Below the pieces are notes generated by a model that was not told the DNA's origin, did not search any database, and saw only the letters and a program-made list of their open reading frames with translations. A stretch of DNA of 39,458 nucleotides. Source: Caldisericia bacterium (lineage in GTDB: Bacteria > Caldisericota > Caldisericia > UBA6126). Shown in pieces: positions 1,822 through 35,518 of the stretch. Both the position numbers and the translations under genes were made by a program. Numbering within the stretch: the first letter of the stretch is position 1; each line of letters starts with the position of its first letter. The stretch is taken from the NCBI GenBank assembly GCA_028700655.1, contig JAQVSG010000012.1, positions 1 through 39,458 of the forward strand, given 5' to 3'.

Positions 1822-2688
1822 ATGAAGAATATGAAACGTTTTTTAGTTGTTTTTTTGGGAGTTTTAATGGGTGTAACCGCATTGTTTTCAGTAGGAGGGT
1901 TGCAAGCGAAAGAAAGTGCTGTTTCTCAAAATACCTTTTTTAAACCTTTATTGGTTTTATCTACAGCAGAACAAAATAGTGTATTTTTTTCCTTTACAAA
2001 CACTGCAAAAAAGCCTAGCAAATTGCAAGCAAAGTTGACTCACGAATATACCAAGCACTCTGATTCTGAGTGGATGGTCCAGTTTTGTTATTCCAATATA
2101 TGTTACCTTGACGAGGGAGAATCACCAAACACGGTGGATCCTGGGAAAAAAGAAGAAATGCATGTACAAATGTCTCCCTACGTCGCTTATAAAGGCGATA
2201 CTATAAAATGTACGCTAGAAGTATGGCCTGTTGTGGAACCCAAAAATGTTACAAAAGTTATGTTTTATGGTGTTGTTGTAGACGAAGGAAAAGTTGAACT
2301 TCGCATTGACAATCCGCAAGCAAAAGTAAACGATAAAGTGCAGACGCTTGATGCAGCACCCTTCATTTTGAACAGCCGAACAGTTGTGCCTTTGCGTTTC
2401 ATTGGGGAAGCTTTGGGCGCTGAAATTGGCTGGGATAACAACCAAAGAATGGTTAGTTATAAACTTGGGGATGAAATTCTTTATTTCTGGATTGACAAAA
2501 AAGAAGTTAAAGTTGTTATTGGGCCCTATTTTGCTAAAACAATACCACTGGAAGCTGCTCCTGTCATCCGTAGCGGAAGAACTTTTGTGCCCGTCCGTGT
2601 AGTCTCTGAACTATTAGGTGCAAAAGTAGGATGGGATGGTACTACTCGTACTGTAAGCATTGATTTCCCCGCACCCTATGAACATTAA
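1822..2688 (+). CDS. Secreted protein with C-terminal copper amine oxidase N-terminal ('stalk') domain
   Basis: N-terminal signal peptide (MKNMKRFLVVFLGVLMGVTALFS). Duplicated motif 'VVPLRFIGEALGAEIGWDNNQRMVSY' / 'FVPVRVVSELLGAKVGWDGTTRTVSID'. RBS-like AAAGGGG upstream. Confidence 0.85.
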   Translation: MKNMKRFLVVFLGVLMGVTALFSVGGLQAKESAVSQNTFFKPLLVLSTAEQNSVFFSFTNTAKKPSKLQAKLTHEYTKHSDSEWMVQFCYSNICYLDEGESPNTVDPGKKEEMHVQMSPYVAYKGDTIKCTLEVWPVVEPKNVTKVMFYGVVVDEGKVELRIDNPQAKVNDKVQTLDAAPFILNSRTVVPLRFIGEALGAEIGWDNNQRMVSYKLGDEILYFWIDKKEVKVVIGPYFAKTIPLEAAPVIRSGRTFVPVRVVSELLGAKVGWDGTTRTVSIDFPAPYEH

Positions 2689-2707
2689 TATAACCAAAGG
2701 GGTTTGT

Positions 2708-5700
2708 ATGATTGTTAAGAAGTATATTTCATGGTTTCTCTCCATATTGCTGCTCGTGGGTCTTGCCTATCCAATAGACATGCCAGTTTCTGCTACAGAA
2801 ACTCAGGAAGAAAGCAATATATCTATTATAGGAGGAGGCATACCTACAGGTATGTTCTTTGCTCCCACCTATTTAAATGTCCAACAGCAAAGGCTGTATG
2901 TATCGGATTCCAAGAATAACAGAATACAGGCATTTATCCGAGGTAATGTTTTTCAACTTGCTTTTGGTGGTTTTGGTCAAAATGAAAGAGAGTTTGACCA
3001 GCCTGCTGGTATTTGTACCACCGACGACGAGTTGTTTATTGTTGACTCCTTGAATGCTCGTGTTCAGATATTCGACTCCAAAGGGAATTATAAGTCTCAG
3101 TTTGGTGCTTTCGGTAATGAACCCGGTAATTTTAACACACCAACAGATATTGCCACAGATGGAACCAAACTTTTTATATTGGATACCGGCAATGCTCGTG
3201 TTCAGATATTCGATCTTGCTGGCACTTATATCTCGTCTTTTGGTGCGGCTGGAGTCGAAGATGGATTTTTTAGTAAACCCTTAGGCATAGAGATTGCTAA
3301 AGGTAAAATTTACGTGTCCGACACAGGAAACAACAGAGTTCAGATTTTTTCTACCGCGGGTACTTTCATCAGTGTTTTTGGGTTTAGCGGAACGGAAGAG
3401 AAAGCTTTCCACAAGCCAAAAGGCATCACTTTTCATGAAGAAAAAGTCTACATTGTAGACTCTGGCAACAAACGAATTCATGTTTACGACGAGAACGGTG
3501 TTTACCAATCGGTTATCGCATTGCCAGAATGTAAAAGTCCATATGGTATTTCCATCCTCGACAACAAGATTTTAGTTTCTGATATTACTACCAATGAAAT
3601 CTTGACCTATACCTACGAAGGTAAGCAAAACGGTTTCTTTGGAGAAAAACCTGACTATTCAGGACGATTTGTCAAACCTATCGCCATATCTGCTACTGAA
3701 AAGGAAATCTTTGTGTTGGATGCTCAATTGAAAAATGTTCAAATATTTGATGAGCACTTTGAACCGGTTAGACATTTTTCTTCTGAAGAAATGGAAAAAG
3801 CCGATTTATTAAATCCTGTAGATATGGCAGTGTATGGAGATAACATCTACATTGTAGACGAAATGAAGCCAGCCATCAGCATATTTACAACCGCTGGAAA
3901 ATTTGTCAAAAATATTGGATCGTATGGAACTGAACCGGGTACATTTATTTCTCCCCAAGGAATTAGTCTGTACAAAGATAAAATGTACATATCGGATGCA
4001 GGCAATTCAAGAGTACAAGTTCTTACCCTTCAAGGCGACACCTTGTTGACTTTTGGTTCTTTTGGATCAAAGAACAACCAGTTTTTTAATATGAAAGGTA
4101 TTGCCGTCATCGATGATACGATTTTCATCACCGATTCTGGTAATTCTCGAATCACTGTCTACGACCTAGAGGGGAATTATCTGAATTCCTATGGGAAAAG
4201 AGGGTTTGAAACCGGTAATTATTATGGTCCAAATGGAATACATGTCGATTTGTCCGGAAAAGTTTATATTGCTGACATGTTAAACAACCGTATACAAATA
4301 CTAAATTCTATTACCGATCAATCTAAGGTATTTGGGCAATTTGGTTCCATATTTCAAGATCCTGAGAATTATGCAAAAGGAAAAACTGACTACCGCTACG
4401 ATTTGATACCAGGATACTTTGTGTATCCATCCGATGTCACTGTTTTTCAGAACTATATTGCCGTTGTAGATCCTTTTAACGTACGGGTTCAAATGATACC
4501 TTTTTCTATGGTATTTGAGAAGAATCCTTTGGATCTGACCCCCGATTTTCTAGATTTTGGTTCTGTAGGTTCTTCTGCCACCGTTACTAGAACCTTTGTA
4601 TTACGCAATACTGGCGGAAATTACATTGAAGGTAACATCTCGTGCGATCAAGATTTTGTTACTATTGAGCCCACCCACTTTAAGGGATCTTCAGAAGAAA
4701 TCACTATTTCTGTGAAGGGGAGTTCATTAGAAGCTGGAAAATCCTACGAAGCAAAAGTGACGGCCACTCTTATGGATGGTCAATCTAAAGACCTTTCAAT
4801 TGTATTTACGGCGAGTAGTGAACCGGATTTTTATGCAGAAATTACCCCGTTTTTCGTGGCTTCTGCTGAAGAAGAATTACGAGTTCCTATTAAGGTATAT
4901 CCTCAAAATGGATTTGAAGGACTGATTACGTTCTCTGCTATCGAACTTCCGAAAAACACTTTGCCCACATTCGATCCTCCTTCCATCAATATACCTGAAT
5001 CGGATACTACATATCTGATTTTGAAGTCTTCCTCAGATTATATTGAAGCCGGAGAGTATCGAATTGAAGTACGAGCTGATTCTGCAAAAGGCAATAAATC
5101 GCACCACTTCAATTCTACTTTTGTTTTTAAGCAGAAATTGGATTTGGTACCCCACACTGTACTAGGTGAACTTTTCACCGCTACCTGGTGTTTAAACTGT
5201 ATTTATTCCCACATGGCCATGGATCAGTTGTATGAAGAGTTGGGGAAAGAAACTGTTACTTTTATAGAATACTATGTTGATTCTACGACCGATCATCCTG
5301 TTCCTCGTTTATCATGGATTGAAAGTGAACAACGGATGAAATGGTATATGTCTGACAAGGGTTTACCAACGATATTCTTTGACGGAACGGATTATTTGAA
5401 AGGTGTTTCCACCGACAATACTTCACCAGAGGCTAAAAGAGCCAGAATGTACAAGGATTATCGTGAGAAAGTCATTGAAAAATCGAAAGAGTCTTCTGCT
5501 GTTACTATTTCTGTGCGCAGTATTTTCGATTCAAAACGACGGATGGGGAAAGTGCATGCTTCTGTAAATGCTTTGGATAACCTTCCCTACAAAAACCCTC
5601 ATATCTACTTCGCGGTCATCGAAAGCCATATTCCCTACAATGCTGTCAACGGTGATAAATTTCATCATTTTGTTTTGCGTGATTTCATTACCCCTGTCAA

Positions 5701-7471
5701 CGACGACAAGCACGATTATCTAGGCACTCCTATGAAGTTGTCTTCAGGAGATACTTTTGGTACCAAGGGAGATACATTTGAAATCGATGTTGATTTTTCT
5801 CTTTTGGATTTCTTCAATCTTGCCAATATTTCTCTTGTGGTCTTTGTACAAGACAATGTTACTAAAAAAGTATTGCAATCAGCGACCTATCCAGTTAAAG
5901 TGATTAATTATCGCTCTTTTGATGTAATCTCCGATGGATCGTTGGTTCAAAAGAAAACCAAAGGCGAAACAGGTAGTATACAATTTGACATCATTAACGA
6001 TGGTACTATCCGCGACACCTATGAAGTCCGTGTATTAAATAAATCCCTCGAAAAATGGAACTATAGCATCTCTGTAGATGGCAAAAAACAAAATGTAACC
6101 ATTCCGAAAATCACTCTAGATGCATTTGAAAGGGCTTCACTCCAACTGCATTTCTCCATTCCCGCAGATGCTCCTGTGAATGCTGATCAAGAATTTGTAT
6201 TTCAAGTGGATTCTTCGACCTCTCATCATGCTAAAGAACTTAGAGGATACATTGAAGTGATTGAAAGTCGACCTCCCGGTTTCATATTAGAAGTACAAGA
6301 ACCGGCTGATTTGAACTTAATGGCTGGCAACGAAGGTTCAATAGGGATTCAAATAACCCCTGACCCCTATGTGGAAGACAATGTGGAACTCACCTTACTG
6401 AATGCTTCTGAAGACATTTCTTCTTATCAATTCACTCCTCCCACCGGACCGGCTCCTCTTGATTCTACACTTACCTTTACCTTTGCCGATACTACTACCG
6501 AAAAAGATATTGATTTGGTTATTCAAGCCAAAGCAGGTACCATTGTCAAAACGGCTATTGTGACCATTCATGTTCTTCGCAATCCCGATGCCGTTCCACC
6601 TCAGCTTAAAATTGCGTATCCTTCCGACAACCTATTAACAAATCAACCAGACATGACCATTACAGGCATGACTGACCCAACGGCTACGTTAACCATTAAC
6701 CAAGCTCCTGTCGAAATCACCAAAAATGGTTCTTTTGAATACTCTCTTACTCTTACAGAAGGTGTTAACAATATCGATGTGATTGCTGCAAATAGCAAGG
6801 GCCTCCAAACACAAGAAACTCTAACCATTACATTGGACGTTACTCCTCCCGTTCTCACCATAGAAACTGAGATCCCCGAAGAAACTACCAAACGAGAAAT
6901 TATTGTTGTAGGGAAAACCGAACTAAATTGTGTGGTTACTATTGGTGATCAAGATATTGTCCTTGAAGAAGATGGAAGTTTTACGTATACTGCTACACTC
7001 ACTCACGGATGGAATGGGATTTACATCACCGCCATAGATGCTGCTTCCAATGCAACTACCATTGAATACAACGTTATTGTTATCAATAAAATTGTATTGC
7101 AAATTGGAAATCAAACCGCGTCTGTCAATGACGAAAAAGTGGTACTTGAAGCCGCCCCTTACATCAAGAATGGTCGCACTATGGTACCTATCCGTTTTAT
7201 TGCTGAATCTCTTGGAGCAGAAGTAGGTTGGGACAATGTTACAAAATCTATCACCATTCAAAAAGGAGATATTACTATTTCCTTAAAGATTGGAAGTATA
7301 GAGGCTTTCATTGAAGAAGAGGGAGCTATTGGCCGTGAAAAAATAACTCTTGAAGCACCCCCTGAAATTGTTAGTGGCAGAACCTTTGTACCTTTACGAT
7401 TTGTAAGTGAAGCCTTTGGTGCTACCCTTGACTGGAATGGCGATACCAGAGAAATAACGATCAAACAGTAG
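2708..7471 (+). CDS. Large secreted multidomain protein: NHL beta-propeller repeats, Ig-like domains, Omp28/thioredoxin-like domain (CLNC), C-terminal stalk domain
   Basis: The ORF track starts at 2660, but ATG 2708 follows an AAAGGGG RBS and opens the signal peptide MIVKKYISWFLSILLLVG. Many 'G.F..P.GI.....IYV.D..N.RVQIF' NHL units. 'GELFTATWCLNC...KGLPTIFFDG' is thioredoxin-like. C-terminal 'MVPIRFIAESLGAEVGWDN...FVPLRFVSEAFGATLDWNGDTREITI'. Confidence 0.85.
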   Translation: MIVKKYISWFLSILLLVGLAYPIDMPVSATETQEESNISIIGGGIPTGMFFAPTYLNVQQQRLYVSDSKNNRIQAFIRGNVFQLAFGGFGQNEREFDQPAGICTTDDELFIVDSLNARVQIFDSKGNYKSQFGAFGNEPGNFNTPTDIATDGTKLFILDTGNARVQIFDLAGTYISSFGAAGVEDGFFSKPLGIEIAKGKIYVSDTGNNRVQIFSTAGTFISVFGFSGTEEKAFHKPKGITFHEEKVYIVDSGNKRIHVYDENGVYQSVIALPECKSPYGISILDNKILVSDITTNEILTYTYEGKQNGFFGEKPDYSGRFVKPIAISATEKEIFVLDAQLKNVQIFDEHFEPVRHFSSEEMEKADLLNPVDMAVYGDNIYIVDEMKPAISIFTTAGKFVKNIGSYGTEPGTFISPQGISLYKDKMYISDAGNSRVQVLTLQGDTLLTFGSFGSKNNQFFNMKGIAVIDDTIFITDSGNSRITVYDLEGNYLNSYGKRGFETGNYYGPNGIHVDLSGKVYIADMLNNRIQILNSITDQSKVFGQFGSIFQDPENYAKGKTDYRYDLIPGYFVYPSDVTVFQNYIAVVDPFNVRVQMIPFSMVFEKNPLDLTPDFLDFGSVGSSATVTRTFVLRNTGGNYIEGNISCDQDFVTIEPTHFKGSSEEITISVKGSSLEAGKSYEAKVTATLMDGQSKDLSIVFTASSEPDFYAEITPFFVASAEEELRVPIKVYPQNGFEGLITFSAIELPKNTLPTFDPPSINIPESDTTYLILKSSSDYIEAGEYRIEVRADSAKGNKSHHFNSTFVFKQKLDLVPHTVLGELFTATWCLNCIYSHMAMDQLYEELGKETVTFIEYYVDSTTDHPVPRLSWIESEQRMKWYMSDKGLPTIFFDGTDYLKGVSTDNTSPEAKRARMYKDYREKVIEKSKESSAVTISVRSIFDSKRRMGKVHASVNALDNLPYKNPHIYFAVIESHIPYNAVNGDKFHHFVLRDFITPVNDDKHDYLGTPMKLSSGDTFGTKGDTFEIDVDFSLLDFFNLANISLVVFVQDNVTKKVLQSATYPVKVINYRSFDVISDGSLVQKKTKGETGSIQFDIINDGTIRDTYEVRVLNKSLEKWNYSISVDGKKQNVTIPKITLDAFERASLQLHFSIPADAPVNADQEFVFQVDSSTSHHAKELRGYIEVIESRPPGFILEVQEPADLNLMAGNEGSIGIQITPDPYVEDNVELTLLNASEDISSYQFTPPTGPAPLDSTLTFTFADTTTEKDIDLVIQAKAGTIVKTAIVTIHVLRNPDAVPPQLKIAYPSDNLLTNQPDMTITGMTDPTATLTINQAPVEITKNGSFEYSLTLTEGVNNIDVIAANSKGLQTQETLTITLDVTPPVLTIETEIPEETTKREIIVVGKTELNCVVTIGDQDIVLEEDGSFTYTATLTHGWNGIYITAIDAASNATTIEYNVIVINKIVLQIGNQTASVNDEKVVLEAAPYIKNGRTMVPIRFIAESLGAEVGWDNVTKSITIQKGDITISLKIGSIEAFIEEEGAIGREKITLEAPPEIVSGRTFVPLRFVSEAFGATLDWNGDTREITIKQ

Positions 7472-25249: not shown

Positions 25250-25320
25250 AAAATTGTAACACTTGATGCTATGAATCGGTATACTAGTGTGTAAACTCTT
25301 TTAAAAAAAAGGAGCCCATA

Positions 25321-28300
25321 ATGAAAAAGCAAACCATAATTGTTATGGTTTTATCTGTGTTGGTTTTTTTGTCTGGTTTGTTTCCATCGAAAGCGAAAGG
25401 AAATACTGAAAAAATTAGCTCTTCATTTTATATGGATATTTGTTCAAAAACCCAGCTAATACCTGTTGTAATCGAATTCAATAAACCTTGTTCCTATCGT
25501 TACATTCGGGATACATTTCAACTTTCTAGCTTTGTATATACACAGGAAGAGATCTTGAAAAAATATGAATCGAGTCTTTCTTCCTATCAAAATCAACTCC
25601 TTCAGAAATGGCAAAATCAAGGGATTGGTGTATATGCAGATCAGCAGATTTATCATGTCATGAATGCTATTATTGGAGATATCAGAGGGGTGGATATCGA
25701 CCAACTGTTGAACAATCCTGGAGTAAAATATGTGTATGACAACCGTATAGAGTATACCCCAGAACGAACCATTGCTGCCTACACAACGCAAGTTGAACAA
25801 TTACGTGAAACGTTTCAATACACAGGAGAAGGCATTCGAGTTGGTATTTTGGATTCTGGTTTGGATCGAACTCATCAAGATTTCAGCTCCGATTTAGCAG
25901 ACGCAAACATAATGGACGCGAATGAATATGTGAAACAATCGCGGGTTTATATAGGAGAAGATTTCGCAGATGGAGACTCAGATTGGCACGATGATTTACC
26001 TGTTGGGATGCACGGGCACGGTCATGGAACTCACGTTGCCGGGATCGTCGGTGGTAATTCCTGGATTCACGATGATTCAATGGGTATGGCTCCTCAAGTA
26101 GAATTTTGTATATACAAAGTTTTTACCAAAGAAAAATCGGGAGCTAGAAATATTTTGGCAGCCATTGACAAAGCATTTACAGATCAATGCGATATTATCA
26201 ATATGTCTCTTGGCCACAGTGGAGGTTCTGCCATTGGTTCTTCGTATTACACTTCTCTTACTGAGAATATCAAAGAAGCGATTGAAAGCGGTGCCTTTTT
26301 TGTTGTTGCTTCTGCTGGAAATGACGGTACAAGAGGCAGAAAATTGAACTTTTCGACAGGTTCTCCCGCCAGCACCTATGATTTTTTTAGTGTGGCTGCT
26401 TCCAATGATAGACCTTTTGAAACCTTTCTTGTTTCTTTAGAGGGTATTGAAAGAAGCATTGATTTCACTCTATCTCCTCACTCTGGACCTTTTACAAACC
26501 AGATTCTCAAACAATCCATGATTCCCTGCGGTTTGGGGAAAAAAGAAGATATCCCCCAGGATGTGCATGGAAATATTGCTTTGATTGAAAGAGGGGGTAT
26601 GACGTTCCGTGAGAAAATGGACAATGCAAAAGAAAAAGGGGCCATTGCTGTTATTTTGTATAATCATAGCGCTGGATTGATAACCCCTGCCCTAGTTACA
26701 GGTAATGAAAGTCCAGACGATATCGAAACAATTCCTGTATGTATGGTTTCTAAAATTGACGGCCACTGGCTTTTGGACCACCGCGAGGAGCCTTTAGAAA
26801 TGACCTTGAAAGAAGGTCGCCAAATGACAATTGCTACTTTTTCTTCTTCTGGCCCCACTGTAGACGGATTCTTTAAACCAGAGATAACAGCTCCTGGAAC
26901 TGCTATTCTGTCATGCTTTCCTCCAAACTCTTACGCCAAAGCTGGCGGAACGTCTATGTCTGCGCCAGTTGTAACTGGTTTGAGTGCACTATTAAAGGAA
27001 GTTCATCCAGAATGGAATTTAATGCAAATTAAATCCGCTTTTATGAATACTGCCGAAATTTTAGTGAACCCTCTCACAAATCACACTATTGCACTGTCTA
27101 TGCAAGGGGCAGGAGAAGCAAGATTAGAAAATGCTTTGAATACTCCTGCTTTTATCGAACCACAAGCATGCATTGTACAACCTTCTATTGTCCAACCCCA
27201 TGGAATAACGGGCGACGAACCAATTCAATTTACGGTTACAAGTAACTCCGAGGAACCCATCACATTCCGTTTGTCAACAGAGATCTTTTCTCTACTGCCA
27301 GATGAACACATACCTTTTGAGTATGAATTAGAGAAAGAATTCATGACTCTAAAACCAGGCGAAAAAGGAACGTTTTCCATAGCTTTTTCTTTGGAGGCAG
27401 ATTCTCCTCAACGAGATCATTATGATGGATTAATATGGCTCGAAACAGAAACGGAAGAACAAAACCTACATATTCCCTTTATCGTATATCCAGAAGGTAT
27501 CTTAACTATTGATGCACCCATCTCCAATGTGCTTATAGAACCAAAACAATGGGACTATTCGTCCGAATGCATAGATCCTTTAAAAATGGGATTTTATTTG
27601 CATTCTGGAACGGAACAAAGCATTGAAGGCGAGACAAATTACAATAACTTTGCAAACGTGATGGTTTCTCTGGTTGATGAATCTGGTCAAGAATGGGCAT
27701 TGATTGACACACCATCTTCTCTTCTTGCAGGAGATTATTACTATTTTGAATGGTCTGGAAAAACGAAAAATGGTGGTTTGGTATTGTTTGATGGGGATTA
27801 TTATCTGAAAATCACGATTGACGGTTTTGTGTATAAAAATGGAGAGTTAATCCGAGAAATATCCTATAACTCAATGGATAAAGATAAAGAAAATGTACGA
27901 TTTGAGATTGCAAATTCTCCGGTTCCTCTACCCGAAAACATTATTATCTCGGCGAATCGTCTTTACAATGCCGATGAACCCATCCACATGGGTTTTATTC
28001 TTGAAAAAGCAAAGGATATCAATGGGGTTTGTTTTACCTATCGATATGATCCCCAAGCTCTTGATTTTGAAGGAGTTTCCTATGGGAAGGATATCCGTCT
28101 TCATGATACCGATCAATTTGTCGTTGATCACGATATTGATCATGGCATTTTACAATGCTTGATAGTGCAAGAGGATGAAAATTGGACGGGAGACTTTTTT
28201 CACATTCTTTCTTTTCAATTTCGATTAAAAGAAAGTGGAAAGCCTTTACTTTTTGACTTTAAAGATGGTTTTATTTTTGAATCTGGCCAGGAATCCGGTC

Positions 28301-28530
28301 GATTAAAGGCGTTTTACCCTGAGGTAAAAGGCACTCGACGTACGAGTTATTTATTATGTGACCTAAATGACGATCGAGTTGTCGATAAATATGATTTTAT
28401 GGAGTTCCAGAAGTATTTTGACAGTTCCTATGGCGACGAAAAATACAATGCAATTTGTGACTTTAATCAAGATCACAGAATCCAAGTCGAAGATTTAATG
28501 ATCCTAGGTTCGGAATATGAAGATAAATAG
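25321..28530 (+). CDS. Secreted S8 subtilisin-like protease with PA domain, FlgD-Ig-like, cohesin-like and C-terminal dockerin-like modules
   Basis: Catalytic triad 'GILDSGLDRTHQDF', 'HGHGTHVAGIVGG', 'GGTSMSAPVVTGLSALL'. PA insert 'IALIERGGMTFREKMDNAKEKGAIAVILYNH'. Dockerin-like 'CDLNDDRVVDKYDF...CDFNQDHRIQVEDLMILGSEY'. GGAG RBS. Confidence 0.92.
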   Translation: MKKQTIIVMVLSVLVFLSGLFPSKAKGNTEKISSSFYMDICSKTQLIPVVIEFNKPCSYRYIRDTFQLSSFVYTQEEILKKYESSLSSYQNQLLQKWQNQGIGVYADQQIYHVMNAIIGDIRGVDIDQLLNNPGVKYVYDNRIEYTPERTIAAYTTQVEQLRETFQYTGEGIRVGILDSGLDRTHQDFSSDLADANIMDANEYVKQSRVYIGEDFADGDSDWHDDLPVGMHGHGHGTHVAGIVGGNSWIHDDSMGMAPQVEFCIYKVFTKEKSGARNILAAIDKAFTDQCDIINMSLGHSGGSAIGSSYYTSLTENIKEAIESGAFFVVASAGNDGTRGRKLNFSTGSPASTYDFFSVAASNDRPFETFLVSLEGIERSIDFTLSPHSGPFTNQILKQSMIPCGLGKKEDIPQDVHGNIALIERGGMTFREKMDNAKEKGAIAVILYNHSAGLITPALVTGNESPDDIETIPVCMVSKIDGHWLLDHREEPLEMTLKEGRQMTIATFSSSGPTVDGFFKPEITAPGTAILSCFPPNSYAKAGGTSMSAPVVTGLSALLKEVHPEWNLMQIKSAFMNTAEILVNPLTNHTIALSMQGAGEARLENALNTPAFIEPQACIVQPSIVQPHGITGDEPIQFTVTSNSEEPITFRLSTEIFSLLPDEHIPFEYELEKEFMTLKPGEKGTFSIAFSLEADSPQRDHYDGLIWLETETEEQNLHIPFIVYPEGILTIDAPISNVLIEPKQWDYSSECIDPLKMGFYLHSGTEQSIEGETNYNNFANVMVSLVDESGQEWALIDTPSSLLAGDYYYFEWSGKTKNGGLVLFDGDYYLKITIDGFVYKNGELIREISYNSMDKDKENVRFEIANSPVPLPENIIISANRLYNADEPIHMGFILEKAKDINGVCFTYRYDPQALDFEGVSYGKDIRLHDTDQFVVDHDIDHGILQCLIVQEDENWTGDFFHILSFQFRLKESGKPLLFDFKDGFIFESGQESGRLKAFYPEVKGTRRTSYLLCDLNDDRVVDKYDFMEFQKYFDSSYGDEKYNAICDFNQDHRIQVEDLMILGSEYEDK

Positions 28531-28540
28531 GATGGTATGT

Positions 28541-31500
28541 ATGAAAAAGATCGTTTTTTCTCTATTTTTAGTAGGGTGTTTTATGGGTGTTTCTATATTC
28601 CCGGTACAAGGTGTTGTCAATACAAGCGCAACTCTTCAGACGGTTTTCGTTGAAGAAGTTGTGCAGCAAAAACAGAAAGATAATGCCCTAGTACCCATTG
28701 TTGTTGAACTTTCGGTACCTTGTGTTATTGAACAGAGTGATCGAAATGCTTCCATACGTTCTTTTTATGATAGCAAACAAGATTTTGTCCTTGACTACAC
28801 CTTTGAGCCCACTGTTTTGTCTCAGCAAAAATCATTTCTTTCGTTTCTGACCAAAAAAGGAATCAGTTTCCGAGATACAGAAATGAATTGTACCCTTGTT
28901 GCCAATTCTGTAGCTTTAGAAGTGAAAGGAACGGACATTGAACAACTCAAGGATTATCCAGGTGTTACGAAGATATGGTCCAATGAAATAAAGTATTACC
29001 CAACTCGTTATGTTGCTGCGCAAACTACCCATGCAATAGAAGCCTGGAAAGGGATTGCTACAAATAGTAGTGCCATGGGCAGTGGGGTGAGAGTAGGCAT
29101 TCTTGATAGCGGATTGGATAGTACTCATGACGATTTCCAAAAACGCGTTAAAGGCGGATTTGATTACGGAGATAATGATCCTGACTATAACGACAAAAGT
29201 GGTCACGGAACTCACGTAGCGGGTATAATTGGTGGAAAATCCGATGACAATAAGTTTAGTGTTGGGATGGCTCCAGACTGCTTGTTTTATATTTACAAAG
29301 TTTTTTCCTCCTCCTCTCCCGGGGCGAATACTCAGAATATTATCAAGGGAGTTGAACAGTCAATTAAAGATAAATGTGATGTTATCAATTTGTCGCTAGG
29401 TCATGAAAGCGGAGATCCAGCTACAACAACGGGGTATTACTCTGATGGCTTTAGAAATGCTAGTAAAACCGGAATGATGGTTGTAGTGGCAGCAGGTAAT
29501 GAAGGATCAAGAGGAAATAAACAAAAGTATGCCATTGGTTCTCCGAGTTCTGTTGATGCTTGCTTTAGCGTTGCCGCAACAGACGATCGATCTGGCCTTA
29601 GTTTTTCCGCTACTGCAAATGGTGAAAAACGTAGAATCGTTTCTAAATTAGCTCAATATTCTCCCTCTTTTTCAAATCAGCTTTCAAATGTGGCATTGGT
29701 CGACTGCGGTTATGGAAAACCCGAAACCATCCCGGAGGAAGTTCAGGGTAAAATTGCAATTTTACAACGAGGTCCTAAAAATTCTCAAATGACGTTTAGG
29801 GAAAAAATGGACAATGTGCGCAATGCCGGAGCCGTTGCCTTGATTATTTACAATTATCAAGGGGAACAAGCTATACCCCCCGCTATTGCTGTACAAGGTG
29901 AAGATCCATCTAACATTGATTTTATTCCCACATGCATGATTTCTTATTATGATGGACAATGGCTTTTGGAACATTCTGATGCAGTTTCTCTTGATTTTTC
30001 CCAAGGTACTAGTTCGGTGATGGCCACTTTTAGTTCACAGGGACCTGGAGCAGACGGGTGGTTCAAACCCGAAATATCCACACCAGGAACCAACATCATG
30101 TCCACAGTTCCAAGAAATTCGTATGGTTTAGCTAGTGGAACTTCCATGGCATCCCCTGTTATGGCTGGTTTAGTGGCGTTGCTGAAAAATCTTCAACCCG
30201 AGTGGTCTCCTGCACAGATAAAATCTGCCTTTATGAATACTGCAGATATCCTTTTAAACGAAGTCAATGGACTACCTGTAACATTTACTCTTCAAGGGGC
30301 GGGACAAGCCCTCATTGATAGGGCCGCTGAGACATCCGCTTTTATTTCTCCGCAGGCCTTGGTTGTAAAAAAGAATGAAATTCTTCCCTTCCAAACCGAT
30401 TCAACTAAGCCTGTCCAAATTACTATAGAAAATACAAAGCAGAAAACCATGCATTATGATATTCGCCATGAAGTGTTTCTTCTTCCTGGAGAAAACAATC
30501 CTGTTGATATAATCATTGATACAGAGAAGCTCTCCCTGGGTAAGAAAGAAAAAGGATCCATTTCTGTCACCTTTGATTGTGATTACAAATCTATGTCTAA
30601 GCCTAGATATGAGGGTGTCATTTATATAGCGGATCTTCATATTCCTTTCATTGTGTATCGAGATGGACCGAATTATGATGTAGAAGCTCTTTCAGATATT
30701 CGTGTAACACCGGAAGATTTGATGTTTACCCAAGAAAATGCTACAGAGGATATTTCTGTTCAGTTTTCACTCAACTCTGGTGAAGAACAAATCTGGGATG
30801 GATTTTCAGGGGGAAGCTCTTACTCTAATTATGGTAATATTAAAATTGCCGTTATAGATGAGTATGGAGAAGAATGGGGAACCATTGCTACTCTTGCAGG
30901 TCTTCTTATTGGAGACTATCAAATTCATTGGAACGGGAAAGACTCTTCGGGTAGATATCTACTACCAAAAGGAAAGTATCATATTGAAATCCGTGTGACA
31001 AACTGGAAAATTAACGGTGGAAAATATCAATATTATCAAGATGCTTACTCGTCTCAACATGCGATGAATGTTGTAGAATCCATTGTGCCAGAGCCAGGAA
31101 ACCTAATTGTTGCGGTACAAAAACTATTGTCTCCACGAAAGTATTTTACCGTTGATTTGATATTGGAAGATGCTGAAGATGTTGTTGGACTTGAGTATGA
31201 ATTCTCCTATAACGGAAACAAACTAATGTGCGAAGGAGCTTTCGACGGGGGATTCTTTAGTTCGGATGGAGCCGATGTCGAACTCGTTGAAGATATTGAT
31301 GATTCCGAAGATGGGCATGGTATAGTATCGTTGTATCGGTATGCTCAAAGAGATCAAGAAGAAGGTATTAGTGGACAACATGTAAAAATTTCAAGTCTTT
31401 CTTTCAAGCCTTTAGATTCTGGAAGAATGAGCATAAATTTGTTGAATTGCCAATTGATCTACACCAATGGGTCGAAAGCTAAACTTCGTTACAGAGGTGG

Positions 31501-31714
31501 ATCTTTTACAGTCTCTAAGGAATACGATTTCCTACTTTGTGACTTAAACAACGATAAAGTTGTTGATATGTATGACTGGCGAATCTTTAAAGAGCATTAT
31601 TTGACTGTGAAAACCGATAAGAACTACAACAAAGAGTGTGATTTTAATCAAGATGAACGTATTGATATCGAAGATTTAGTGATATTTGGTAGAGAATACC
31701 GAAAGATGCTTTAA
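28541..31714 (+). CDS. Secreted S8 subtilisin-like protease, tandem paralogue with the same domain architecture
   Basis: 'GILDSGLDSTHDDF', 'GHGTHVAGIIGG', 'SGTSMASPVMAGLVALL'. PA 'IAILQRGPKNSQMTFREKMDNVRNAGAVALIIYNY'. C-terminal 'CDLNNDKVVDMYDW...CDFNQDERIDIEDLVIFGREY'. ATG 28541 (MKKIVFSLFLVG) is the likeliest start; the track uses 28517. Confidence 0.92.
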   Translation: MKKIVFSLFLVGCFMGVSIFPVQGVVNTSATLQTVFVEEVVQQKQKDNALVPIVVELSVPCVIEQSDRNASIRSFYDSKQDFVLDYTFEPTVLSQQKSFLSFLTKKGISFRDTEMNCTLVANSVALEVKGTDIEQLKDYPGVTKIWSNEIKYYPTRYVAAQTTHAIEAWKGIATNSSAMGSGVRVGILDSGLDSTHDDFQKRVKGGFDYGDNDPDYNDKSGHGTHVAGIIGGKSDDNKFSVGMAPDCLFYIYKVFSSSSPGANTQNIIKGVEQSIKDKCDVINLSLGHESGDPATTTGYYSDGFRNASKTGMMVVVAAGNEGSRGNKQKYAIGSPSSVDACFSVAATDDRSGLSFSATANGEKRRIVSKLAQYSPSFSNQLSNVALVDCGYGKPETIPEEVQGKIAILQRGPKNSQMTFREKMDNVRNAGAVALIIYNYQGEQAIPPAIAVQGEDPSNIDFIPTCMISYYDGQWLLEHSDAVSLDFSQGTSSVMATFSSQGPGADGWFKPEISTPGTNIMSTVPRNSYGLASGTSMASPVMAGLVALLKNLQPEWSPAQIKSAFMNTADILLNEVNGLPVTFTLQGAGQALIDRAAETSAFISPQALVVKKNEILPFQTDSTKPVQITIENTKQKTMHYDIRHEVFLLPGENNPVDIIIDTEKLSLGKKEKGSISVTFDCDYKSMSKPRYEGVIYIADLHIPFIVYRDGPNYDVEALSDIRVTPEDLMFTQENATEDISVQFSLNSGEEQIWDGFSGGSSYSNYGNIKIAVIDEYGEEWGTIATLAGLLIGDYQIHWNGKDSSGRYLLPKGKYHIEIRVTNWKINGGKYQYYQDAYSSQHAMNVVESIVPEPGNLIVAVQKLLSPRKYFTVDLILEDAEDVVGLEYEFSYNGNKLMCEGAFDGGFFSSDGADVELVEDIDDSEDGHGIVSLYRYAQRDQEEGISGQHVKISSLSFKPLDSGRMSINLLNCQLIYTNGSKAKLRYRGGSFTVSKEYDFLLCDLNNDKVVDMYDWRIFKEHYLTVKTDKNYNKECDFNQDERIDIEDLVIFGREYRKML

Positions 31715-32196
31715 TGGAAATCATAGTAATTCCAATTTATAAGCCTGATGACTTAAATTTTATTTTGGGACAATCCCATTTCATTAAAACCGTGGAAGAT
31801 CTTCATGAAGCGTTGATACAAAGTTCTCCTGGAGTACGTTTCGGTATTGCATTTTGTGAAGCCTCTGGAAAATGTTTGATTCGCTTTTCAGGCAACGATG
31901 ATAAGCTTATTGAGCTAGCAAAACGTAATGCTGAGTTGATTGGTGCTGGTCACTGCTTTATCATTTTTATGGAAGGGATTTTCCCTATTAGTGTTCTGAA
32001 TCGGATCCAAGAGGTTCCAGAAGTATGCCATATCTTTTGTGCTACTGCCAATCCTACCCAGGTATTGTTGGTAGAAACAAAACAGGGGAGAGGCATTCTC
32101 GGTGTGGTGGATGGGAATTCTCCCAAAGGAATAGAAACAGAAGAAGATGTCATCGAGCGAAAGAGATTTCTTCGTACAATCGGCTATAAGCTATAA
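31714..32196 (+). CDS. Adenosine-specific kinase family protein (PAE2307-like)
   Basis: MEIIVIPIYKPDDLNFILGQSHFIKTVEDLHEAL...'GVRFGIAFCEASGKCLIRFSGND...GAGHCFIIFMEG.FPI.VLN...VPEVCHIFCATANPTQVLLVET..GRGILGVVDG'. Start overlaps the protease stop by 1 nt (TAATG). Confidence 0.85.
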   Translation: MEIIVIPIYKPDDLNFILGQSHFIKTVEDLHEALIQSSPGVRFGIAFCEASGKCLIRFSGNDDKLIELAKRNAELIGAGHCFIIFMEGIFPISVLNRIQEVPEVCHIFCATANPTQVLLVETKQGRGILGVVDGNSPKGIETEEDVIERKRFLRTIGYKL

Positions 32197-32207: not shown

Positions 32208-32879
32208 TTATATCCAATACATAAATCCCCTGGAAATGCTTTCGATAATCCAGGGGAGTATGTATGTTATCATTGCGATAACCAATACAATTTCCCCAAA
32301 AAAACTTTCTTTCTCCAATTTTACCCTCTCTCCTCGTAATGCTTTCCACATGAGCCAACCATTTAAGGGTGGGATGGGCAATAACGACAAGAAGAAAATG
32401 AAAAAATTGATTTTCGCAAACAAGGCAATTTGACCGGCAAATGTGAGAGAAAATGATTCCACGGGATAGATCAGTAGCTGGGAAAGAACTGCCAATAAAA
32501 GATTGGCAATAGGACCACTAAGAACGATTCCTATCCGTTGTCCCTTTTTACTACCTGTTAACACTTTGGGGGAAGTAGTTGGGTTGCCCCAACCCATTCC
32601 AAAGATTGGAAAACATAGAAATCCAAGAATATCCAAGCTTCTTATATAGTAGGGGAGTGATTTTTTTTGAATTGCCAAACTAACATCTCCTGCTTTTCGT
32701 GCAAAATGATCTTGTATTGATCGTTGCAAAGATATACAGACGAAACCATAGACCATGGTAGCGAATATTGTGATATACCAGTCTGTTGAAAATGGATATT
32801 TGGGCCTTGCGAGCACAAACCCCCATACAACAATAAGTAGCAACAAAACATATCGGGCAATGATTCTATTTTTTGACAA
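32208..32879 (-). CDS. Site-2-protease-like (M50 family) membrane protein lacking HExxH; predicted pseudoprotease
   Basis: S2P-like spacing 'A..AGD', 'GMGWGNPTTSP', 'GIVLSGPIANLLLAVLS', 'FFLSLLPIPPLNGW'. The expected HExxH position reads QRSIQ and the expected LDG reads LNG. Multiple TM segments. Confidence 0.75.
   Translation of the reverse strand: MSKNRIIARYVLLLLIVVWGFVLARPKYPFSTDWYITIFATMVYGFVCISLQRSIQDHFARKAGDVSLAIQKKSLPYYIRSLDILGFLCFPIFGMGWGNPTTSPKVLTGSKKGQRIGIVLSGPIANLLLAVLSQLLIYPVESFSLTFAGQIALFAKINFFIFFLSLLPIPPLNGWLMWKALRGERVKLEKESFFGEIVLVIAMITYILPWIIESISRGFMYWI
32226..32257. repeat. Perfect 9-bp inverted repeat in the 3' end of the S2P-like gene
   Basis: TCCCCTGGA (32226-32234) and TCCAGGGGA (32249-32257), 14-nt loop. 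Confidence 0.7.
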
Positions 32880-32890
32880 ACCATGACTCC

Positions 32891-35518
32891 TTACTTCTGT
32901 GCATATCGAATGATCACTGTTTGGATTTCATCTTCTTTGCTTGGAATGAATCCATCTAATTTTAACATTTTTAATTCTTCTATGCAGTTGCCAAGATCTC
33001 TTTTTTCTAGCCCGGTCAGTGCTTTTATCTCATTGGCAGTGATCTCAAGGGATATTTTTTGCAATTTGCATACATAATGAAGAATTTTTTTTCTTACATG
33101 GATGGAAGAAAGACATAAGAATACTCCTAATTCATTGCTTGAAAATGGCTTTAGTGTTTGGTATAGATGAGAATTCTGTTTTATCGAGAGAAGTTCGTTG
33201 TTTAAAGAGGGGTACGATCGGTGTACCTTTTGTATCATGGCGATATCTTTATGGCTCATACGCAGACGTTCGCAGATGTCTAATGTGGATTCTAAGGGTA
33301 AAGAAATGGTCATAACAGCGATATATAGAATCCATTTTGGTCCAATATAATACTTTTGTAAGACGTTTTTACTTCGATTCAATGCAAAACGTTGTAGGTC
33401 GCCAAAAACAAATTGATCGGAAATCACTTGCAATGCGTCCAATTCTTTCATCAATTGGAAGGTTTTCACAATAGAAATTGGTTCTGTAAGTAGATTAATA
33501 AAGCTTGAAAGTATGCGAAAACGAGTCGTATTTTTAAACAATCCTGATTTCATGGCTTGTATAGCGAATTCTTTTGTTTGTTCTTCGATCGAAAAGTCAT
33601 AACGAATTGCATACACAATGGCTCTAAAAATCCGGGAAGGATCTTCAATAAAGCTTAAGTTGTGTAGAATACGAATTTTCTTGTGTCGTAGATCATCGTA
33701 TCCATGGTAGTAGTCTAGTAGGGTTCCAAATCGTTTTGGTTCTAGACTTATAGCTAAGCAATTAATGCTGAAATCTCGTCGTAGCAAATCTTCTCGAAGT
33801 GAACCGCTAGTAACTGTTGGCAATGCAGCAGGATATTCATAGTATTCGGTTCTAGTGCTTGCTAGATCCATTTCTGTATCGGGAAGCAATAGTTTGACTG
33901 TATGGAAGGAGGGATTTTTTATCAATTTGCAGGAGAAAATTGGCTGTAATAAGTCGGCCAATTTAATGGCATCTCCTTCCACTAGAAAATCATAATCCTT
34001 GCATGAGTATTCCAACAATAAATCCCGTACACAGCCCCCTACTAGAAAAGCTCTTTGATGTATGGAATCGGCGATTTTTCCTATCTGGCGGATAATTTTC
34101 AGGTGTTGTTTGGGGAAATAGGACTCAAACCACTGGTTCATTTGCATTCGATTGGGAACAGAAATGTAGTGTTTAAAGGGAGGAGTGGTGGTTTTGGATA
34201 TACCATACAAAGCTCGTAAAAGATCCGATCTGGTAAGGATGCCAACGATGTTTTGATCAAATACTACGGGCAGTCTACCAATATCTTTATCCACAATGAG
34301 TTTTTCTGCTTCTTTAAGAGATGTTTCTGGAGAAACCACAATAACATGCTTTGTCATATAGGATTTGACAGGACGCCTTAAAAGCTTTTCATCAGAAATA
34401 CGTTCGATGTCTTTTCTAGAAATAATGCCTGTAATTTTTTTGTTTTCATTGACAACAGGAAGACCTGTATGTCCATATCGCAGCATAATGCGTAAAGCTT
34501 CTTCTGCAACGGCGGAATCTTCGATGGTTTTAACAGGAGAGCTCATATAATCTCGCACCAGTTTGCTTACTTGACACTTTTTTTTGGCAAGCTTTAGCAA
34601 ATGAAGCGACCATTCGTTGAGACTCCGATCGTCTTCCTCTATAAAAGCAGAACCTGCTTGAGGGTGTCCCCCACCCCCTAATTGTTCCATAATGTTTCCA
34701 ACATGGATAATGTGGTCATCCTCAGATCTGGCAACAATAATGGTTTTTTTCTTTCGTTTTACAACTACAAAAAGTACGTCTACATCGATAGAATCTAAAA
34801 GTCTATGTGCCAAAAAAGATACACCGTTGACGTAATGAGGATAACACGCTCCTGAAATTGCAATTTGTACGCCTTTAATGGAGTAAACAGCGGTGGACTC
34901 AAGAAGAATTGAAAAGAGTTTTTTCTGTCTTTCTCCCAGAGGGGGAAAAATGAATTCTGAAATAACATTCAATTTGGCCCCATTGCGGAGGAAAAACGCT
35001 GCTGCCTCCAAATCCTTCGGAGTCGTGGAGGGAAACGTTAGAGAACCAGTATCCTCATAGATTCCAATAATAAAGAGAGTTGCTTCTATTGCATTGAAAC
35101 TAATTCTCTTCCGCTTTAATCGTTCATACATTAGCGTCATTACAGCGCCATAGTGTTTAAGATGAAGTTTATCAATATACGGATTTTCTTCGAGAGGATG
35201 GTGATCAAAACAAACAACTTTGATTTTTCTTGCCTGTAATTCCTTTTGCAAGGGTTTCATTTTCTCGGTGTTCTGGGTATCCGTTAATATGACGAGTTCA
35301 ACGTTTTCGAAAGAAATATCTTGAATAGGGACAAAAGAAAAGAAATCTCGATAAATGGCTAGAAATTTTTGCACTTCGTCTTCTACAGATGAATTTAAAA
35401 CAGGAACTGCATCTGGATACAATTTCGAGGCAGCAATGGTAGATGCAATCGCATCAAAATCGGAATATGAATGAGATATGCATAGAGCTTTTGGAGAAAT
35501 TTTCTTTAACTTTTTCAT
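32891..35518 (-). CDS. Fusion protein: DHH/DHHA1 phosphoesterase - CBS pair - class II tRNA nucleotidyltransferase/poly(A) polymerase
   Basis: 'VVCFDHHPLEENPY' (DHH), 'GGGGHPQAGSAF' (DHHA1), CBS 'VAEEALRIMLRYGHTGLPVVNENKKITGIISRKDI...DIGRLPVVFDQNIVGILTRSDLLR', NT 'FLVGGCVRDLLLEYSCKDYDFLVEGDA', 'RRDFSINCLAI', 'EDPSRIFRAIVYAIRY'. Confidence 0.92.
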   Translation of the reverse strand: MKKLKKISPKALCISHSYSDFDAIASTIAASKLYPDAVPVLNSSVEDEVQKFLAIYRDFFSFVPIQDISFENVELVILTDTQNTEKMKPLQKELQARKIKVVCFDHHPLEENPYIDKLHLKHYGAVMTLMYERLKRKRISFNAIEATLFIIGIYEDTGSLTFPSTTPKDLEAAAFFLRNGAKLNVISEFIFPPLGERQKKLFSILLESTAVYSIKGVQIAISGACYPHYVNGVSFLAHRLLDSIDVDVLFVVVKRKKKTIIVARSEDDHIIHVGNIMEQLGGGGHPQAGSAFIEEDDRSLNEWSLHLLKLAKKKCQVSKLVRDYMSSPVKTIEDSAVAEEALRIMLRYGHTGLPVVNENKKITGIISRKDIERISDEKLLRRPVKSYMTKHVIVVSPETSLKEAEKLIVDKDIGRLPVVFDQNIVGILTRSDLLRALYGISKTTTPPFKHYISVPNRMQMNQWFESYFPKQHLKIIRQIGKIADSIHQRAFLVGGCVRDLLLEYSCKDYDFLVEGDAIKLADLLQPIFSCKLIKNPSFHTVKLLLPDTEMDLASTRTEYYEYPAALPTVTSGSLREDLLRRDFSINCLAISLEPKRFGTLLDYYHGYDDLRHKKIRILHNLSFIEDPSRIFRAIVYAIRYDFSIEEQTKEFAIQAMKSGLFKNTTRFRILSSFINLLTEPISIVKTFQLMKELDALQVISDQFVFGDLQRFALNRSKNVLQKYYIGPKWILYIAVMTISLPLESTLDICERLRMSHKDIAMIQKVHRSYPSLNNELLSIKQNSHLYQTLKPFSSNELGVFLCLSSIHVRKKILHYVCKLQKISLEITANEIKALTGLEKRDLGNCIEELKMLKLDGFIPSKEDEIQTVIIRYAQK

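Follow-up and report, generated by a model that had tools for sequence, protein, structure and literature searches.

A probable site-2 protease pseudoprotease under purifying selection, encoded beside an A-adding tRNA nucleotidyltransferase-type gene in Caldisericia

Pseudoproteases have reshaped the current thinking on rhomboids. Within the site-2 protease (S2P) family, the plant protein EGY3 has been called the only homologous pseudoenzyme (PMC9355673), and our search of the open-access literature found no inactive bacterial S2P. The protein described here resembles mjS2P (3b4r) and the minimal bacterial and archaeal S2Ps in predicted fold, size and helix order, and has several motifs in common with them (a Gly-Asp pair after the first active-site helix, GW, S/A-G-P-x-x-N and LPIPPL-x-G). 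It differs from them in that both the HExxH motif and the LDG aspartate are replaced, and in the loss of the residues at positions T67, H81, N165 and S175. Our reading is that some Caldisericia carry a selected S2P pseudoprotease with a non-proteolytic function at the membrane that is tied to the adjacent enzyme, and to this statement as a whole we assign a probability of roughly 0.75.

The window (the whole stretch of 39,458 nucleotides analysed) makes up contig C58 in a draft genome that is 1.95 Mb long and 88.6% complete. In what follows, f1 to f7 are families in Caldisericota and G-numbers are draft genomes, G000 being that of the window. The features on which the analysis is centred are these:

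32208 to 32879, minus strand: S2P-family gene, very probably of a pseudoprotease, 223 aa, TTG start (open reading frame, PF02163, orthologues and AlphaFold model).
32712 to 32726, minus strand: former HExxH zinc and catalytic site, now Q52-R53-S54-I55-Q56 (alignment columns; H/E/H in 67 of 67 intact relatives).
32361 to 32363, minus strand: former third zinc ligand (the LDG Asp), now Asn173, giving LNG (Asp in 67 of 67 intact relatives).
32442 to 32459, minus strand: E141-x-x-S-L-T segment, preceding the helix 145-166 (alignment; helix boundaries from the AlphaFold model).
32887 to 32892, minus strand: AAGGAG, a ribosome-binding site that shares bases with the upstream gene's stop codon and is separated from the TTG by a 7-base spacer (sequence).
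32891 to 35518, minus strand: upstream partner, a DHH-CBS-polyA fusion of the A-adding tRNA nucleotidyltransferase type, 875 aa (NF041569, conserved gene pair).

The reading frame of the S2P-like gene is uninterrupted over its 223 codons, and its product matches Peptidase_M50 (PF02163) with an E-value of 9.5e-8 and 32.1 bits, above the gathering score of 27.2, so that both the family membership and the kept frame that had been proposed from the sequence are borne out. The product of the upstream gene matches NCBIfam NF041569 (A-adding tRNA nucleotidyltransferase) with an E-value of 6.6e-153, under the family's own equivalog cut-off. Contig C58 is syntenic with genomes G002 and G003 (pyrB, pyrI, the A-adding gene, the S2P gene, an adenosine-specific-kinase-like gene, subtilases and more), which makes contamination of this locus unlikely. 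The convergent neighbour at 31714-32196 (plus strand) matches Adenosine_kin (PF04008, E-value 4.9e-75) and has counterparts of 60-65% identity at the corresponding site in G002 and G003. Adjoining the locus, at 25288-31711, the window encodes a tandem pair of subtilases that carry PA and dockerin type I domains, and subtilases (tandem or single) are found at the equivalent position in the same two genomes. At some distance, the large protein encoded at 2657-7468 contains a repeat-like segment, TPPQILQGRTVVPLRFISEAFGANV, which we take to be copper amine oxidase N-terminal-like and which is common to proteins beside an intact-S2P locus, on contig C66 of the window's genome (L039:1-321) and in relatives; the proteins with this segment are possibly a family of surface proteins.

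In the window protein the HExxH motif reads QRSIQ and the third-ligand aspartate is Asn173, and the motif is also gone in nine orthologues. The original prediction had placed these replacements, QxxxQ for HExxH and LNG for LDG, at exactly the codons listed above, and it had raised an intact HExxH elsewhere in the protein as one finding that would speak against it. No such motif was found in the whole 223-residue protein, and the conserved G64-D65 pair lies at identical, gap-free spacing from the active-site columns in every row of the alignment, so a misalignment masking the true site was ruled out. The structural residues G64, D65, D83, G86, G96, G122, P168 and G195 are invariant while the residues of the pocket change: T67, invariant in intact S2Ps, is altered in ten of ten inactive orthologues, and H81, N165 and S175, likewise invariant in intact S2Ps, are altered in most of the f1/f2 pseudoproteases. 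The valine of the PVPVN segment after the GW motif, plausibly a substrate-facing strand, is also altered in most inactive orthologues, which weakens a pure substrate-trap model. A new feature is the E141-x-x-S-L-T segment, invariant across the f1/f2 pseudoproteases and unconserved in intact S2Ps.

Judging from the residues lost, proteolysis by the window protein is highly improbable. It might be argued that the protein is still a protease with an altered metal site (with Gln or Asn ligands, for instance) or another set of residues, since the orthologue in G005 retains one His and the Asp, and that in G002 one His. We consider this very improbable: the general-base Glu is absent in all ten inactive orthologues, the ligand positions are varied (Q, H, R, N or S at the first, Q, K or R at the second and D, N, P or A at the third), and in SpoIVFB the E44Q change alone kills activity (PMC11486902).

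The AlphaFold2 model of the window protein is confident (pLDDT 91.5, pTM 0.87). Its top Foldseek match in the PDB is mjS2P (3b4r; probability 0.99), with a TM-score of 0.46 and an E-value of 0.07 that are both weak, and the second is SpoIVFB. An intact f4 orthologue, modelled as a control, matched 3b4r with a TM-score of 0.40 and an E-value of 1.1e-4, the latter better than that of the window protein. Since the TM-score of the intact control is similar, a low value is not a mark of degeneration, and a bad fold was dropped as the explanation for the modest score. The top match to mjS2P and the similar TM-score of the control indicate that the S2P transmembrane fold is kept, and the alignment profile also retrieves RseP, mjS2P and SpoIVFB when compared with PDB sequences.

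The loss of the site is common to orthologues from three families, all with open reading frames. Four close orthologues, from two genera of the window's family and one sister family, are likewise inactive, having no catalytic Glu and a Gln at the second His in all cases; these f1/f2 genes lie directly downstream of the A-adding gene, and the HExxH equivalent reads HRYIQ in G005, HTNVQ in G002 and RRLSQ in G003 and G004. Five f6 orthologues at the same locus (G009, G013, G017, G021 and G025) read NCYxK/R or SSYVK. The position of the LDG aspartate holds D or N in the f1/f2 pseudoproteases and P or A in f6. The expectation that orthologues would share QxxxQ and LNG was thus right as to the loss itself and as to Q56, which is fixed throughout the f1/f2 pseudoproteases, and wrong as to the exact residues, which differ. 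In total, the site is lost in 10 of 10 orthologues of f1, f2 and f6 at the A-adding locus versus 0 of the 67 other S2Ps in the alignment. The linked S2Ps of the sister family f4 (G007, G011 and G019) are intact, with HEVAH or HEFFH and LDG, as is a close homologue in G023 that lies on another contig piece. Within Caldisericota, the inactive S2Ps are always linked to the A-adding gene (10 of 10), and the intact S2Ps checked in f3, f5 and f7 are unlinked. Relatives were also sought in viral contigs and plasmids, and none was found there.

We also weighed whether the gene might be a decaying pseudogene or the product of a sequencing or assembly error, a reading to which the long branches of the f1/f2 orthologues (26-37% identity) lend some colour. 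The nonsynonymous to synonymous rate ratio (dN/dS, Nei-Gojobori), proposed at the outset as a check, is well below 1 in the sister genera and in f6, where it was measured (0.05-0.13). In the one congener (G001) the contig ends inside the upstream gene, so the absence of the gene there is not readable as gene loss. Between G003 and G004 the pseudoprotease gene has a ratio of 0.128, the intact paralogue one of 0.163 and the A-adding gene one of 0.114; among the f6 pseudoprotease genes the ratio ranges from 0.048 to 0.081 (six pairs among four species). Such values argue for a gene that is selected and not decaying. Furthermore, the frames are open in ten genomes, the ribosome-binding sites are good (seven loci were read, each showing a clear Shine-Dalgarno sequence and a start codon placed between -19 and +12 bases relative to the upstream stop) and independent assemblies share the loss. 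With the shared loss, the intact frames and the dN/dS values, decay or error was ruled out as an explanation, and it keeps hardly any credibility. The second finding that the original prediction had named as adverse, orthologues with HExxH that would mark this copy as disabled or misread, was thus not made. That f1, f2 and f6 carry an S2P pseudoprotease under purifying selection is, in our judgement, very likely.

How often the site was lost depends on the S2P tree, in which long branches meet. The f1/f2 pseudoproteases form one clade (support 100/99) and those of f6 another (99/96), and in the best tree, calculated with the active-site columns omitted, a single change of state suffices, on a branch with support 84/71. 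Trees of independent loss, placing the f1/f2 pseudoproteases with the metK-locus S2Ps (p-AU 0.34) or f6 with f4 (p-AU 0.31), were not rejected; because of this and of the meeting long branches both histories stand, and the number of losses would be one or two. Family f6 (L029, L068, L070, L071, L179), whose genomes are without another small S2P, may represent a second, independent loss of the active site, the LDG aspartate included.

The pairing of S2P and A-adding genes extends far beyond Caldisericia. The original prediction stated that S2P homologues are often found next to DHH-CBS-polyA genes, and indeed an S2P lies in the available downstream flank of 36 of 80 A-adding loci from GTDB species genomes of many phyla. 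The loci were those that best matched a query from Caldisericia, so they are no unbiased census. One of the 36 is G005's own record; the remaining 35 S2Ps all retain HExxH and come from Bacillota, Thermodesulfobacteriota, Myxococcota, Nitrospirota, Atribacterota, Armatimonadota and others. In 34 of these 35 the end of the A-adding match and the start of the S2P frame are no more than about 550 bases apart, and mostly no more than 100, the exception (L113) being at 4 kb. The gene pair is old and widespread.

As to function, one alternative is a dominant-negative regulator of a remaining active S2P (the C66 paralogue or RseP), acting through substrate competition or heteromers. The f1/f2 genomes do hold, besides the inactive protein, RseP and a second S2P, which is intact and falls in the same size class (in the window's genome the paralogue on contig C66), and rhomboid pseudoproteases are described as inhibiting rhomboid-dependent signalling (PMC3149277). 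We regard such regulation as unlikely: in the five f6 genomes the sole other M50 protein is of the RseP type, so RseP would have to be the target, the substrate-side valines are altered, and the gene's constant neighbour is the A-adding gene, not an active S2P gene. A second, intact small S2P occurs in many Caldisericota genomes (L020-L033, L041-L043, L039); in f1/f2 it occupies a different conserved locus, with a metK-like gene nearby in G001, G002 and G003.

Given that the inactive gene always accompanies the A-adding gene and that f6 has no further small S2P, we prefer an adaptor or anchor to a regulator of active S2Ps. The pseudoprotease would be a non-proteolytic, membrane helix-binding protein, working with the neighbouring A-adding enzyme or with a membrane partner common to both, and this role may go back to intact ancestors at the locus, where it would have existed alongside proteolysis. 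For the E44Q variant of SpoIVFB, inactive by that change alone, a structure with Pro-sigmaK has been obtained from purified protein (PMC11486902), which shows that an S2P can lose its activity and go on binding a client. A specific adaptor role of this kind is put forward tentatively, at somewhat less than even odds, since the partnership is suggested by gene adjacency, which alone does not prove physical contact. The narrower proposal, that the protein now serves as the dedicated membrane adaptor of the tRNA 3'-end A-adding enzyme, or as its anchor, is doubtful; if true, it would suggest that the A-adding-linked S2Ps across bacteria share an unrecognised function in tRNA 3'-end maturation or membrane RNA quality control.

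A prokaryotic clade that has lost the zinc site yet keeps fold and gene position and remains under strong purifying selection would separate a proteolytic from a non-proteolytic job of S2Ps, and it points to their widespread, unexplained link with the DHH-CBS-polyA A-adding enzyme. The S2Ps beside such genes in Bacillota, Thermodesulfobacteriota, Myxococcota, Atribacterota and others have the same locus and gene order as the Caldisericia pseudoprotease, but differ from those of f1, f2 and f6 in their intact HExxH (35 of 35 sampled). iRhoms and derlins likewise keep an intramembrane protease fold without catalysis, although theirs is an unrelated serine-protease fold and the likeness is one of analogy only. 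The nearest parallel is plant EGY3 (PMC9355673, PMC10978774), which, like the Caldisericia clade, is a lineage-conserved S2P homologue without HExxH for which a non-proteolytic role has been inferred. As described in those papers, EGY3 is located in the thylakoid and is plant-only, whereas the Caldisericia proteins belong to bacteria, are minimal in size and are encoded beside the A-adding gene. S2P pseudoenzymes were thus already known from plants, and a bacterial clade of S2P pseudoproteases, as recognised here by sequence, appears to be new.
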